From NCBI GenBank assembly GCA_026418415.1, contig JAOABK010000012.1, positions 1 to 57,017 of the forward strand: 57,017 nt of DNA, given 5' to 3'. The notes under the pieces were generated by a model. That model did no database searches, was not told the origin of the DNA, and saw only the letters and a list, made by a program, of their open reading frames with translations. The DNA comes from Pseudomonadota bacterium. Its GTDB lineage: Bacteria > CALINM01. Positions 51,421 to 57,017 of this stretch are shown here, piece after piece (the first letter of the stretch is position 1; each line of letters starts with the position of its first letter). The translations under genes and the position numbers were made by a program.

Positions 51421-52890
51421 ATGCTAAATGTGGAAATTTTTAATACCCAAACTGGAAAAAAGGAAGCCCTAAAAACAATCGAGCCCAATACAGTAAAAAT
51501 GTATGTTTGTGGCATAACTGCCTATGATTTATCACATGTTGGTCATGCCCGTTCACAAGTGGTTTTTGATGTAATACAAAGATTTCTTAAATATAGGGCT
51601 GGATATAGTGTGGTCTATGTGAGAAATTATACAGATATAGATGACAAAATAATAAATAAAGCTCACAAAGAAAATGTCCCTTTTAATGTAATTTCAGAAA
51701 GATATATTAAAGAGTTTGATAAAGATATGGAACTTTTAGGTATTGAAAAGCCCACATATACACCAAGAGCCACAGAATTTATAAAAGAAATGATAGAAAT
51801 GGTTAGGGTATTAATTGAGAAGGGACATGCATACGAAATTGATGGAGACGTCTATTTTTCTGTTGATAGCTTTAAAGAATATGGCAAACTTTCAAAAAAA
51901 CCTCTTGATGAGCTTATGAGTGGTGCAAGGGTAGAAATAGATGAAAGAAAGAAAAATCCTTTAGATTTTGCCCTCTGGAAAAGGAAAAGATATGATTACG
52001 AACCCTCCTGGCAGAGTCCATGGGGAGAGGGAAGACCTGGTTGGCATTTAGAGTGTTCAGTTATGTCGAGTAAACTATTAGGAGATTCCTTTGACATACA
52101 TGGTGGAGGCCTTGATCTTATATTTCCCCATCATGAAAATGAAATAGCCCAGAGCGAAGCCTATTCAGGAAAACCCTTTGTTAGATACTGGGTACACAAT
52201 GGTTTTGTTAACATTAACAAAGAAAAGATGTCCAAATCCCTTGGTAATATACTGACTATAAGAGAGATATGCTCCCATTATCATCCAGAGGCATTAAAAT
52301 TATTCATGTTATCCCATCACTATAGAAGCCCAATGGATTTCAGTTATGAGAAATTGGATGAAGCATATACAAGTTTAAAAAGACTTTATTTATCCATAAA
52401 AAACTGGAAAATCAAGGCAAAAGAATCTTTTGATGAATCCTTTATTGATGAAAAAACAAAAGGTGAGTTGGATAATTTAGAGCAATCTTTTGATAATAGC
52501 ATGTGTGATGATTTTAACACAGCACAGGCTTTAGCAGTCTTTCATGACTATTGTAAGGTTCTTAATAAATTCTATCAAAATCACATTAGGGACAACGACA
52601 ATAAAACCATTGCCACACTAAGCTATGGATACAAGAAATTTTTAGAATTAGCAAAGGTTTTTGGTATACTTCAGGAATCTGCTGAAGATTTTTTTTCGAA
52701 AGAATTAGATAAAACCTTAAAAGAACATAACATAACCATAGAATTTATTGAAAATAAAATTAATGAGAGAAATCAAGCTCGTGCTCAAAAGGACTACATA
52801 AAGGCTGATGAAATTAGAAATCAATTAATGAAATTAGGTATAGAGTTGGAAGACACAAAAGAAGGCACAAGATATAGAATTAAGGTCTAA
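51421..52890 (+). CDS. cysS: Cysteinyl-tRNA synthetase
   Basis: 489 residues. Class I motifs HVGHAR (HIGH) and KMSKSLGN, with YVCGITAYD zinc-site Cys and [10 protein letters not shown]. The last 4 bp overlap the end of the convergent cas6 gene, with no terminator visible between the two operons. Confidence 0.97.
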
Positions 52891-53834
52891 CCATACCTAT
52901 TTATTATCTCATATTTACCGAGTCCAAAACTTGTATTCTTCCCAACATGTAATAGTTCCCCTGCTTCAAGGAGTGGCAAAAAGGGCTTGATATTTCCATA
53001 ATAAATAACTTTTCCAATAACCCCTCCCAAACTCATTTTTGTATCCTGTCTTGAGGAATATCTTTGCCAGTCAAACCATCTAAGATTTGATTCCTTTACT
53101 TTAACTTCTTTTGCCTTTTCAAGAATTTGTCGGTGATCCCAGCCAGCTTCTACTCCTTCACAATGAAAAAAATTAAGCAAGTTAAGCCTTAACATAATAT
53201 TTTTCATGAGGATGTAAAAATCAATATTGCTCACAAGCTTTCTTTCATGCTTTATCCTAACAGGAGTAAGCAATTCAAGCTCTATTGAGCTTACATCGTT
53301 ATTACTAAAATCGAAAACTTCTTTTATTTCAATAAATTTCTTTTCTGGAGGTAAGATATGCTTTTTTTTGTTGTCATACAAGATTTTGTTATCCTGCTCT
53401 ACCCTTTTTAGTATAAATTTGCCCCTGCCCCTTCCGATCCCAACCTCACCACATACATCAAAGGTATAGATAAAATATGGTAGATAATCAATTGCCTTTC
53501 CAATAATAATTAGTGAAAAAGTGATTTCTTCTCCAGCTCTATAGATCCTACCATTATGAAGAGGTGGTTCTATTACAAAAGGATGGGGTATACTTTTATA
53601 TTTATGCATATTCAAAATAGCCGTTTCACCAGAAGGGCTTGTCTCAAAAACATAGGCATAAATACAGCTACTTTTTAGAATACATTCATGACAATCCATC
53701 CTTTTTAATGTACATACTACCTTCCTAAAGGCATTACCAAAAACCCCACGAAAGGTTGATCCCTTAAAATAGGGTAAATTAAGCTCATGAATAGGTTCAA
53801 TTACAAAATTTGTCTTAATATACTGTATTCTCAT
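52887..53834 (-). CDS. cas6: CRISPR pre-crRNA endoribonuclease Cas6
   Basis: 315-residue RAMP protein. The N-terminal region has a zinc-finger-like Cys set (C41, C48, C51, C57 in CHECILKSSC) followed by YVFET, as in the large Cas6 family linked to type III loci. A GIGRGRG loop sits mid-protein, and the C-terminal glycine-rich loop is VGKNTSFGLGKYEI. It cleaves repeat RNA into crRNAs. ATGA overlap with the cas2 upstream. No CRISPR array is in the window. Confidence 0.85.
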   Translation of the reverse strand: MRIQYIKTNFVIEPIHELNLPYFKGSTFRGVFGNAFRKVVCTLKRMDCHECILKSSCIYAYVFETSPSGETAILNMHKYKSIPHPFVIEPPLHNGRIYRAGEEITFSLIIIGKAIDYLPYFIYTFDVCGEVGIGRGRGKFILKRVEQDNKILYDNKKKHILPPEKKFIEIKEVFDFSNNDVSSIELELLTPVRIKHERKLVSNIDFYILMKNIMLRLNLLNFFHCEGVEAGWDHRQILEKAKEVKVKESNLRWFDWQRYSSRQDTKMSLGGVIGKVIYYGNIKPFLPLLEAGELLHVGKNTSFGLGKYEIINRYG

Positions 53835-54109
53835 TTTAAGAAAACGTTCACCCCCTCTGGTATTCTATCACCCTGCCCCATAACAATAACCTTTGGTTCT
53901 GAAGGCAAGGGATAAATTCTTATATCATCTTCATACTCATCAATCAACTCCTTTAATTTGGATTTAATTACGTTAAGCTCATCCCAATCAAGGATACCAT
54001 AAAATACAGAATATTGAATATGCAAAGAGCTTCCCCTAAGAAACTTATAAATTTTGTTTAATCTTTTTTCATCACGGATGTCATAGCAGATTAAATACTT
54101 TGCCTTCAT
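53831..54109 (-). CDS. cas2: Second Cas2 (paired with the degenerate Cas1-like protein)
   Basis: 92 residues, ferredoxin-like Cas2 fold: YLICYDIRDEKRLNKIYKFL (with the usual Asp), IQYSVFYGILD and DDIRIYPL. It seems intact and differs clearly from the Cas2 at 55865-56158. It overlaps both neighbours by 4 bp (ATGA), showing that the five cas genes are translated as one unit. Confidence 0.88.
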   Translation of the reverse strand: MKAKYLICYDIRDEKRLNKIYKFLRGSSLHIQYSVFYGILDWDELNVIKSKLKELIDEYEDDIRIYPLPSEPKVIVMGQGDRIPEGVNVFLK

Positions 54110-54918
54110 GATTCCTTTCCATAAATAATCATCAAAACTTTTCTTAAAAATCTATCTATGACCTTTGTTATAACTGGTTTTCTTTGTTCAAAAATTGATG
54201 TTAAAAGTTTAAAGCCCCTTTCATTTAAAGTTTTATACCCCTTCCATAAACAATCTTGCTTATAACTAAAAAATTTAAGAGACAAGACATCAGTAATAGG
54301 ATCCAAAGCTGACATTAGGTCCTTAACAAAACCCATCATTTGTTTATCATTAATTATACCCTCATTTGGATCTAATTCGTACTCAATACACTTAGAACTA
54401 ATTAATCCAAAAAATAAATCCCTAAAACATTTTTTAACAATAAAAAATCTCTTTCTCCCCTTACCGCAAAAGTTCATTATATAGTATTCATAATCAACGG
54501 TATTGCAATTTCTTTGTTTAAAGGCAATACTCAAATTTCTGTCAATTACCTTTAATGCTAAAGCTTGAATTTCCTTTCTTTTTGTCATTAGAAAAGCATG
54601 AAACTCCTTTTTTATAACTTCTTTCTTTAATGTTAACCTTTGAGCTAAATCGAGAAAATATCCACCATCATAATAGGGTATTATATGAATAGTTCCTTTC
54701 ATGCCAGGCATAGATACGACAACAGCCTTCTTCATAATAGCAAAGTCTAAAAGGATATCCTTATTAACAAATGCAAAAGGGAAATTTATATATACAAAAT
54801 CAACAAGTTCATAGGGTATTCTGATTGGAGAGCGCCTATTATGACTAACAAGTAAAGATGGTCCATCTCTTTTTAAAGAGTAATTTTGCGTTTTATAAAG
54901 ATACAAGGTCTTCTTCAT
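54106..54918 (-). CDS. Divergent Cas1-like protein, probably catalytically inactive
   Basis: 270 residues. Recognisable as Cas1 from its place and from ELDPNEGIIN...FVKDLMSALDP, which aligns with LDPTVGFYHS...ACDFVEPF of its neighbour. Compared with that Cas1, the metal-ligand His becomes N190, the second acidic residue becomes S203, and about 35 residues around the first catalytic Glu are missing. Only D200 of the usual metal ligands seems kept. The N-terminal beta domain (YLYKTQNYSLKRDGPSLLV) and basic surface remain. The frame is open and coupled to both neighbours, so it is not simply decaying. A role as a structural or DNA-guiding partner in an integrase with the adjacent Cas1/Cas2 is inference. 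Confidence 0.7.
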   Translation of the reverse strand: MKKTLYLYKTQNYSLKRDGPSLLVSHNRRSPIRIPYELVDFVYINFPFAFVNKDILLDFAIMKKAVVVSMPGMKGTIHIIPYYDGGYFLDLAQRLTLKKEVIKKEFHAFLMTKRKEIQALALKVIDRNLSIAFKQRNCNTVDYEYYIMNFCGKGRKRFFIVKKCFRDLFFGLISSKCIEYELDPNEGIINDKQMMGFVKDLMSALDPITDVLSLKFFSYKQDCLWKGYKTLNERGFKLLTSIFEQRKPVITKVIDRFLRKVLMIIYGKES

Positions 54919-55852
54919 TACATATACTCCTGATAAAATCTCTTACAAAGTCCCTTGTCTTACTTCTCAAATTACTTCTCCATTCTTCACAAAGGGGATA
55001 AAACTTTGCTCTACCAGCCTTTTTCAAATAACAACCAGAGCCTTCCTCTTCATAAGTAAAATCCTCTTGGGTAAATTGTCTTGTTCTAAAAAGCTCCCAG
55101 ACAAACCTATCTGCCTCTATTCTGAAGGGTTCAACAAAATCACAAGCTAAAGATTCTCTTCCATACTCAAAGGAGTGATAAAATCCAACAGTAGGATCAA
55201 GTCCATTCAACTCAATTTCCCTAACCATCTCAAAATGAAGGATTGTATAGCATAAAGATAGCATTGCATTTACTGGATCCTGAGGTGGTCTTTTATTTCT
55301 TCCTTCAAAATTTAGAGATGGTGGAAAAATCTTAGTAAAGGCAGAAAAATAAGCAGATGCACTACTACCTTCATAACCTCTTAAAGACTCTATATCTGGC
55401 TTTCTTTCAAAAATATTTTTTTCTATCCCCTCCATTACCTTTATTGTCGAAATAAATTCGCTTCTCAGATCTTGTCGCAATTCTATAAGATCTTTTAAAA
55501 AATTTATTTGGTTTCTGATTTTATGGGTTACTATATTTAATGCAAACTCCCTTGCAAATGATGTTTTCGATTTTTCATACTGTCTGATTCTAATAATCGC
55601 ATTATTATGAAGACTCCCATGGAGCATGCCACAAAAACGAAGGTTTTTCCCTGACAAAAAAATTACACTTATATTTTCGCTTGCAAGCTTGCTTAAAACA
55701 TTAGCCTCAAGCGTAATATTACCAACAATCACAACTCTCTTTAATGGAGTAATAGGAACAGATCCTTCCTTTTTTCCATTAACATAAAAAGCAAGGGTAT
55801 TTCCATCAAGCTTTACATATAAGTCCTTTCTGTCAATAAAAAGTGTACCCAT
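54893..55852 (-). CDS. cas1: CRISPR integrase Cas1 (canonical)
   Basis: 319 residues. Catalytic residues E161 (RGYEGSSASAYF), H226 (GFYHS) and D238/E241 (CDFVEPF), plus RPPQDPVNAMLSLCY, are all intact. It integrates spacers with Cas2. GGAGGAA precedes the ATG. Its 3' end overlaps the degenerate Cas1-like gene by 26 bp. Confidence 0.95.
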   Translation of the reverse strand: MGTLFIDRKDLYVKLDGNTLAFYVNGKKEGSVPITPLKRVVIVGNITLEANVLSKLASENISVIFLSGKNLRFCGMLHGSLHNNAIIRIRQYEKSKTSFAREFALNIVTHKIRNQINFLKDLIELRQDLRSEFISTIKVMEGIEKNIFERKPDIESLRGYEGSSASAYFSAFTKIFPPSLNFEGRNKRPPQDPVNAMLSLCYTILHFEMVREIELNGLDPTVGFYHSFEYGRESLACDFVEPFRIEADRFVWELFRTRQFTQEDFTYEEEGSGCYLKKAGRAKFYPLCEEWRSNLRSKTRDFVRDFIRSICNEEDLVSL

Positions 55853-55864
55853 TGTGTTCCTCCT

Positions 55865-56158
55865 TTAACCAATATAGAAAAAATCTGGATCTTGCGGTTG
55901 TATAGCTATACCAAGAGTATGAGTTTTGCTCCTGCCATCAAGTGTAAAAATATGAATCCTATCCTCAAAGGGATGAATTATTCTCTTTAGCCCCTCTGTA
56001 ACCCTTTCCAATTCTTCATCAGTAAGAAAACACTCATAAACGGATCTCTGACCACCTGTACTGAAGTTCTTAATAAAGTACCTCACTTTAGCTAACCTCT
56101 TCTCATTAGAAATATCGTATGCAACTATATAAAGCGTTCTTGTCATAGCACCTATCAT
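55865..56158 (-). CDS. cas2: CRISPR integrase subunit Cas2 (canonical)
   Basis: 97 residues from the ATG at 56158; an internal ATG at 56146 (MTRTLYIVAYDIS) is an equally plausible start. The Cas2 core is IVAYDISNEKRLAKVRYFI, QRSVYECFL and DRIHIF. Its start overlaps the stop of a small upstream ORF (ATGA), so translation may depend on it. Followed 12 bp later by cas1. Confidence 0.92.
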   Translation of the reverse strand: MIGAMTRTLYIVAYDISNEKRLAKVRYFIKNFSTGGQRSVYECFLTDEELERVTEGLKRIIHPFEDRIHIFTLDGRSKTHTLGIAIQPQDPDFFYIG

Positions 56159-56336: not shown

Positions 56337-56639
56337 TTAATGTTGCTTATACCTTTTCAAGTCGTGATTCTTAAAACCTGTTATTACAATCTTTTCATCT
56401 CCATAGGGCTGGACGATAATGTTAAGTCCTTCCGCACTTCTTAGGTCAATTCCAAGCTTGCGCGCCTTTTTAACCTCTTTCTTGCCTACAAAATAAATCT
56501 CTGCCCCATTTGAATAAAATTTCCTTCCGTGAATAACAACAAGATTGAAGAGTTCATCATTAATCCGTCTTGCTGAAAACCTTTTGAGAGAGTGGTCAGT
56601 AAAAATAAATTTTTTGTTCCTGATAATTTTTTCTGCCAT
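56337..56639 (-). CDS. Small DUF4258/RelE-like protein
   Basis: 100 residues from the ATG preceded by AAGGAGGA; a longer frame upstream to 56708 runs through the operator-like repeats and is unlikely. The pattern FTDHSLKRFSARRI, a Gly-Arg strand, KKARKLGIDL and C-terminal EKIVITGFKNHDLKR resembles DUF4258/BrnT-type small proteins, some of which are toxins. No antitoxin gene is seen next to it in the window. It lies between a csx3-like gene and the cas operon, so a CRISPR link is possible but unproven. Confidence 0.55.
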   Translation of the reverse strand: MAEKIIRNKKFIFTDHSLKRFSARRINDELFNLVVIHGRKFYSNGAEIYFVGKKEVKKARKLGIDLRSAEGLNIIVQPYGDEKIVITGFKNHDLKRYKQH

Positions 56640-56681
56640 TGTTCTATCCTCCTTTTTATCTTTTAATTCAAGGATAGAACA
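56640..56681 (-). promoter_or_regulatory. Perfect 11-bp inverted repeat over the ribosome-binding site
   Basis: TGTTCTATCCT (56640-56650) and AGGATAGAACA (56671-56681) form a perfect dyad with a 20-nt loop directly before the DUF4258-like ATG. The lower arm includes part of the Shine-Dalgarno sequence, so the mRNA hairpin could hide it. Confidence 0.65.
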
Positions 56682-56719
56682 GTTTTGAAAAAATAATAAT
56701 AAAATCAATGTTTTGAAAA
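56682..56719. repeat. Two GTTTTGAAAA direct repeats, operator-like
   Basis: GTTTTGAAAA at 56682-56691 and 56710-56719, 28 bp centre to centre, each nearly palindromic. Further upstream AGGAAATGTTTCCT (about 56726-56739) forms another dyad. These probably contain the promoter and operator of the DUF4258-like gene. Confidence 0.4.
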
Positions 56720-56771
56720 CGTTTAGGAAATGTTTCCTTTAAGATTAGCTTACAAAATCTTGATTTAAATT

Positions 56772-57017
56772 TTAGAAGGGAGAATGATCAAAAATAGTAA
56801 GATCCCCTGTCACAGGAGAGCGATATATTAGTTTCATAGCTTTACCGTGTAAACAATGGGCAAGCTTTAGGTAGAGCCAGATAGGCCCCTGCCCGGTAAT
56901 TACAATCTCATTACCTTCCCCTGCTATTTGAAGTGCCTTTTTACAGTATTTATCTAAATCAGCAAGTTTGGCGGTAGAGTCTTCAGTCTCTTTGTATAAG
57001 TCTTCAACGTTTAAAAT
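56772..57017 (-). CDS. csx3: Csx3-like CRISPR ring nuclease, C-terminal fragment
   Basis: 81 codons read to a TAA at 56772-56774; the start lies beyond the window. EIVITGQGPIWLYLKLAHCLHGKAM is the Csx3 signature (xTGxGPIWLYxxLxHxxH), followed by a C-terminal strand ending DHSPF. Csx3 (Crn3) degrades cyclic tetra-adenylate in type III CRISPR defence. From memory, characterised Csx3 has Asp nine residues after the second His; here that position is Arg, so activity may differ. It implies that a type III effector module lies upstream. Confidence 0.8.
   Translation of the reverse strand: MLNVEDLYKETEDSTAKLADLDKYCKKALQIAGEGNEIVITGQGPIWLYLKLAHCLHGKAMKLIYRSPVTGDLTIFDHSPF

Follow-up and report, generated by a model that had tools for sequence, protein, structure and literature searches.

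A Cas1 paralogue lacking the catalytic residues is conserved beside an active Cas1 in a putatively type III-associated adaptation module

INTRODUCTION

Why would a CRISPR adaptation operon keep, next to a complete Cas1, a second one without catalytic residues? The question is raised by a five-gene cassette at positions 52887-56158 of contig JAOABK010000012.1, a stretch of 57,017 nt (the window) from a Pseudomonadota bacterium (assembly GCA_026418415.1, here genome G000), whose lineage is a rare hot-spring bacterial family. An earlier note on the sequence had read the gene order as cas2-cas1-cas1like-cas2-cas6, with overlaps of 4-26 bp among the last four genes, and the coordinates bear both out: the open reading frame (ORF) listing gives cas2a-cas1-cas1L-cas2b-cas6 on the minus strand, running from 56158 to 52887, with 12 bp separating cas2a from cas1 and overlaps of 26, 4 and 4 bp at the cas1/cas1L, cas1L/cas2b and cas2b/cas6 junctions, respectively. 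The genes, with expectation values (E) of family matches, are:

55865..56158, minus strand: cas2a, 97 aa (93 aa from the second ATG); Pfam Cas2, E 2.2e-16
54893..55852, minus strand: cas1, active type, 319 aa; E161, H226, D238 and E241; Pfam Cas1, E 4.2e-79
54106..54918, minus strand: cas1L, Cas1 paralogue very probably catalytically dead, 270 aa; N190, D200 and S203 at active-site positions
53831..54109, minus strand: cas2b, 92 aa; Pfam Cas2, E 9.2e-20
52887..53834, minus strand: cas6, 315 aa; Pfam CRISPR_Cas6, E 8.6e-17; PADLOC Cas6, E 1.4e-106

The locus appears to be a type III-associated adaptation module, with an active Cas1, Cas1L and two diverged Cas2 proteins. By searching Pfam, NCBIfam and PADLOC, the genes around cas1L were assigned with strong scores as Cas2, Cas1, Cas2 and Cas6, and the window Cas1L (270 aa) matched no family in any of the three. 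Among 98 relatives, cas1L was detected in one, G002 (isolate SKW305, a metagenome-assembled genome of the same family and another genus), on contig JAOAGA010000044.1.

RESULTS

Cas1L adopts a predicted Cas1 fold

The AlphaFold2 model of the window Cas1L, calculated from an input alignment of the two orthologues only, has an N-terminal domain rich in beta strands and, after it, a helical one (predicted local distance difference test, pLDDT, 59; predicted template modelling score, pTM, 0.66). In a Foldseek search of the PDB with this model, every top-ranked match was a Cas1 structure (the best being TM1797, 4xtk, at E 1.6e-5), and VIA-align matched it to 4xtk with Z 14.8 across model residues 2-270. 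The G002 orthologue, predicted alone, gave a less confident model (pLDDT 53, pTM 0.41), for which all 50 of the 50 matches listed by Foldseek were Cas1 chains. The Cas1 fold supposed by the earlier note was therefore predicted for both orthologues, with Cas1 or casposase chains as the exclusive top structural matches. At the sequence level, the G002 protein exceeded the cut-off of the Pfam Cas1 family (PF01867; 24.7 versus 22.3 bits), and hhalign aligned a two-row Cas1L profile over its full length with a profile of 14 Cas1 proteins (E 1.2e-6, probability 91); the hhalign comparison with a single active Cas1 was not significant, and a sequence search of the PDB with the two-row profile retrieved no Cas1. 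The predicted fold together with the profile match rules out a non-Cas1 protein.

Compared with PF01867 members, Cas1L shares the full-length fold, the cas2 and cas6 neighbourhood, the N-terminal motif, the LDPxxG motif and the equivalent of D238, but it lacks the catalytic Glu, His and Glu, is some 49 residues shorter (270 versus 319 aa, as the earlier note had counted) and is encoded beside an active Cas1. It differs from casposases and Cas1-solo proteins in lying between cas1 and cas2b, not away from cas2; in both known loci a cas2 is encoded with it, and no PolB-like ORF was seen in the ORF listing for kb 40-57 of the window. In the Cas1 tree, the Cas1L branch is too long for its origin to be placed.

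The Cas1 active site is lost in Cas1L

The active Cas1 of the cassette carries the catalytic residues E161, H226 and E241, plus D238; among the 14 aligned Cas1 proteins E161 is nearly invariant, and H226, D238 and E241 are invariant. In all alignments, the Cas1L equivalent of H226 is N190, that of D238 is the retained D200 and that of E241 is S203 (Cys in G002), while the stretch holding E161 is shortened, either lost or substituted, and has no Glu. Hence the losses read off the sequence earlier, namely the region of the first catalytic Glu, Asn for His and Ser for Glu, stood up against the 14 Cas1 proteins; the Asn at the position of the catalytic His is common to both orthologues. Cas1L is also the more basic protein, with an isoelectric point (pI) of 9.5-9.7 versus 8.1-8.5 for its active partner, and its best-conserved part is the first 45 residues (about 65%), within the N-terminal beta domain, the domain that serves dimerisation in Cas1.

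Because N190-D191, D200, D206 and D210 are identical in the two orthologues, these residues might form a re-built active site with another catalysis, e.g. trimming. We consider this very unlikely, since only two sequences are compared, D200 and D210 are conserved in active Cas1 as well, and the first Glu ligand is absent.

The cassette is maintained in a second genus

In G002, the five genes occur in identical order, and the 26-bp cas1/cas1L and 4-bp cas1L/cas2b overlaps are the same as in the window, with AGGAG preceding the cas1L ATG in both genera. Such a recurrence in a second genus, with identical overlaps and AGGAG, indicates that the arrangement is more than chance; it also supplies the conserved pairing with an active Cas1 that the earlier note had proposed to look for, and agrees with its view of a dead Cas1 kept in frame and coupled to an active one. 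The two Cas1L proteins are 46% identical over 268 codons, with zero stops and one net in-frame indel, whereas synonymous sites are saturated (proportions of synonymous and non-synonymous differences, pS 0.80 and pN 0.34, respectively; pN/pS 0.42), pointing to purifying selection. Being intact at this identity, with shared order and overlaps, despite synonymous saturation, Cas1L is maintained rather than decaying, and together with the lost triad this makes it very probably a maintained, catalytically dead Cas1.

A decaying Cas1 duplicate, found as sporadic copies, was the outcome by which the earlier note would have been refuted, and could be argued from Cas1L being the fastest-evolving gene of the cassette (46% identity versus 83% for cas2a, 72% for cas2b, 61% for cas1 and 54% for cas6) and from its absence in G001, a genome of the same genus as G000. 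This explanation is already largely refuted and highly improbable: the gene is intact and syntenic in two genera whose CysS proteins share just 65% identity, its synonymous sites are saturated at a pN/pS of 0.42, its overlaps are conserved, and a parallel dead clade in cyanobacteria (see below) has an omega of 0.07-0.14. Conservation of the intact gene and of its overlaps likewise rules out a pseudogene.

The identities across the cassette and in CysS, encoded next to it in the window, are consistent with long common descent, though the flanking genes differ and G001 is without cas1L. That the window could be a contaminant contig was suspected because a ClpA search gave just ClpB-level matches in relatives; this is countered by CysS, which out of 386 genomes is closest to that of G002, a member of the same family. 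A third Cas1L copy was not found in the other sampled genomes, genome contigs, IMG/VR, phages or plasmids; a weak profile match in genome G299 fell in an unrelated gene and was rejected.

A second dead Cas1 clade occurs on cyanobacterial plasmids

Six standalone Cas1 genes accompanied by cas2 were identified on cyanobacterial plasmids of Allocoleopsis, Anabaena cylindrica, Nostoc edaphicum, Nostoc TCL26-01 and Nostoc UHCC 0870 (two copies):

L139:8201-9253, standalone cyanobacterial Cas1
L141:7887-8930, standalone cyanobacterial Cas1
L146:4427-5473, standalone cyanobacterial Cas1
L142:1213-2253, standalone cyanobacterial Cas1
L143:1694-2665, standalone cyanobacterial Cas1
L037:806-1807, standalone cyanobacterial Cas1

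In the tree they form one clade (support 100/99) inside the branch of Cas1 domains fused to reverse transcriptase (RT-Cas1). All six have Ser or Gly at the equivalent of E161, five have Ala at that of E241, and D238 is retained, whereas the full triad is present in each of the seven RT-Cas1-branch domains aligned with them. An RT-Cas1 with intact triad lies on the same plasmid in Allocoleopsis, Anabaena, N. edaphicum and UHCC 0870, where one of the two standalone copies adjoins it and the other is elsewhere on the plasmid; near the Nostoc TCL26-01 gene, only an unannotated Cas1-like match was seen. Among the five Nostocales copies omega was 0.07-0.14, versus 0.04-0.10 for active RT-Cas1 domains, again a sign of purifying selection. 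These proteins thus resemble Cas1L in adjoining cas2, in being under purifying selection and in the intact RT-Cas1 where one is on the same plasmid, but differ from it in their RT-Cas1-branch origin, full length and recognition by Pfam. Since this clade is separate in origin from Cas1L, a dead Cas1 near an active one has arisen at least twice, and the recurrence suggests that such a dead Cas1 is more than an oddity of a single MAG lineage.

Two Cas2 types accompany a single Cas1 elsewhere

The Cas2 encoded after cas1L had been noted to look intact, and indeed the aspartate of the YDI motif is present in Cas2a and Cas2b alike. The reading of the operon as two Cas1-Cas2 sets did not survive comparison with modules, type III-linked or on plasmids, that pair two Cas2 with one Cas1:

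L033:7693-9400, two-Cas2/one-Cas1 module
L034:4640-6240, two-Cas2/one-Cas1 module
L035:4304-6023, two-Cas2/one-Cas1 module

The dual-Cas2 plasmids are Sphaerotilus pSna507_unt13, Aeromonas pMC64A and Allochromatium pALVIN01; the order is cas2-cas1-cas2 on the first two and cas2-cas2-cas1 on the third, each having one Cas1. Their Cas1 proteins and the window Cas1 form one clade (100/99); Cas2a falls in a group (98/96) with the first Cas2 of all three plasmid modules and the Cas2 of genome G361, and Cas2b groups with their second Cas2 (92/94, long branches). These modules therefore share the Cas1 clade and both Cas2 groups with the window and differ in being without Cas1L. As Cas2a and Cas2b types accompany a lone Cas1 there, a second, independent Cas1-Cas2 set is ruled out; cas2b is not a left-over partner of cas1L, because matching Cas2b proteins occur in one-Cas1 loci, and the sharing of both groups with such modules makes the two Cas2 types older than, and independent of, Cas1L. 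Cas1L has thus been added to a dual-Cas2 module that predates it. No paper describing such two-Cas2 modules was found.

Of the same kind is a cas2a-cas1 pair in the distant genome G361 (contig C145, L030:1172-2226), where Cas1 is truncated near residue 221 and a gene pair resembling a toxin-antitoxin comes next.

A putative mixed Cas1 dimer with Cas1L as its non-catalytic protomer

In solved integrases, a Cas2 dimer carries four Cas1 arranged as two dimers, and one protomer of each Cas1 dimer integrates, while the other shapes and walls the DNA channel. To our knowledge, all characterised Cas1-Cas2 integrases are built from one Cas1 polypeptide. Inactive Cas1 subunits have been described as walls of the repeat channel (PMC12259127), non-catalytic Cas1b domains have been described (PMC8102632), and the repeat contact made by a non-catalytic Cas1 has been discussed (PMC6895254). 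As Cas1 dimers already use a single active site, and Cas1L keeps the fold, the conserved first 45 residues and the basic charge without the catalytic residues, we favour a Cas1/Cas1L heterodimer in which Cas1L would be the dedicated non-catalytic protomer, a reading to which we give a probability of about 0.5. In this model, the N-terminal beta domains would hold the two proteins together, Cas1L occupying the non-catalytic position. Joining of the prespacer 3' end to the repeat would fall to the active Cas1, and Cas1L would grip the DNA of the repeat or prespacer. A pair of these heterodimers might sit on a Cas2 core, which, more speculatively, could be a Cas2a/Cas2b heterodimer. Such a division of labour would fix which protomer is catalytic, leaving Cas1L free to specialise, e.g. 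to become more basic and to evolve faster.

In its proposed position, Cas1L would resemble the Cas1b protomer of E. coli, P. aeruginosa I-F and Cas6-RT-Cas1 integrases in carrying out no catalysis, but in these homo-oligomeric integrases Cas1b and the catalytic protomer are one polypeptide, whereas Cas1L is a separate gene product. It also differs from Cas1 homologues with degraded active sites that have been judged probably vestigial, as those are not tied to CRISPR loci and Cas1L lies inside an adaptation operon with an active Cas1 and Cas2. The earlier note knew of no described system of this form, and no account of an inactive Cas1 accompanying an active one was found in the open-access literature. 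If the mixed dimer is real, the idle subunit as its own gene would make catalytic and structural roles separately changeable, and would open to direct test the means by which an integrase with symmetry gives spacers their correct orientation.

Several observations weigh against the mixed dimer: the same Cas1 clade with two Cas2 occurs in modules without Cas1L; Cas1L is known from two genomes only, and G001, of the same genus, is without it; no array adjoins the module, so that its activity in spacer acquisition is putative; and the AlphaFold2 confidence is modest for both orthologues (pLDDT 59 and 53; pTM 0.66 and 0.41).

The basic pI, together with the absence of catalytic residues and the tight co-expression, would also suit an accessory protein or inhibitor that binds DNA or the repeat and works apart from the integrase hexamer, in prespacer capture or the regulation of adaptation. 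We regard such a role as quite unlikely, since the entire Cas1 fold including the C-terminal helices is retained with no added domain, and the place of cas1L between cas1 and cas2b suggests stoichiometric assembly.

The two Cas2 types bear on another arrangement, in which Cas2a would carry a homodimer of Cas1 and Cas2b a dimer of Cas1L, or only one half would contain Cas1L; either would break the two-fold symmetry of the integrase and impose a single spacer orientation, useful for a type III system that needs CRISPR RNA antisense to transcripts. Two old Cas2 paralogues in the module and the 4-bp overlap coupling cas1L to cas2b in both genera fit it, the symmetry problem has been stated for Cas1-2/3 (PMC12259127), and about half of the spacers newly acquired in Thermus type III systems point in the useless direction (PMC7515739). 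Yet full integration needs two active sites, and a half with Cas1L alone would permit just one of the two joinings; moreover, the dual-Cas2 arrangement occurs without Cas1L, and no spacer data tie the module to an array. We therefore find this arrangement possible but unlikely. For the mixed dimer itself, an asymmetry fixing spacer orientation is speculation, and we hold as doubtful the wider proposal that division of the Cas1 dimer between a catalytic and a dedicated dead gene product has happened repeatedly among integrases, yielding asymmetric hetero-oligomers (here with two Cas2 types) whose dead subunit would dictate the first-joined prespacer end and hence the spacer orientation in type III systems.

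Genomic setting of the cassette

No CRISPR array was found within the window or in contig C100 of G002, and with no array touching the cassette in either genome, the module would have to work in trans, unless its site is missing from the assembly. In G000, of which the array scan covered about one third, an array with the 36-nt repeat GTCGCAATCCCTTCTAAATGAGGTCTAAATTCCTAC lies at the ends of three contigs, and a csm operon with its own cas6 is on contig C85. No type III effector or array was linked to the cassette itself; csx3 and CARF genes lie beside it in G002, where it is followed by the small ORF, csx3, and CARF-PDDEXK and Csx1-type CARF-HEPN genes. The window flank comprises:

56337..56639, minus strand: small ORF, likely starting at ATG 56639 and listed from TTG 56708; 94% identical protein at the same position in G002
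56772..57017, minus strand: csx3-like, 5' end cut by the contig end; the intact G002 copy matches PADLOC Csx3

The small ORF has no family match in Pfam, NCBIfam or PADLOC. Its 94% identity between the window and G002 comes with a synonymous divergence (dS) of 0.20, and the csx3 translations are nearly identical by eye, so that identity breaks sharply between the flank (window 56337-57017, L005:11815-12504) and the cas genes (46-83% with saturated dS). This break indicates that the flank was exchanged far more recently than the cas genes diverged.

G000 also holds a 5.8-kb contig (C120, L006:1-5803) with a CRISPR array, Cas1, Cas2 and a 966-aa fusion resembling RT-TPR-primase/polymerase (RT-PrimPol); its ends are near-identical over 173 bp, reflecting either a circular element or an assembly artefact.

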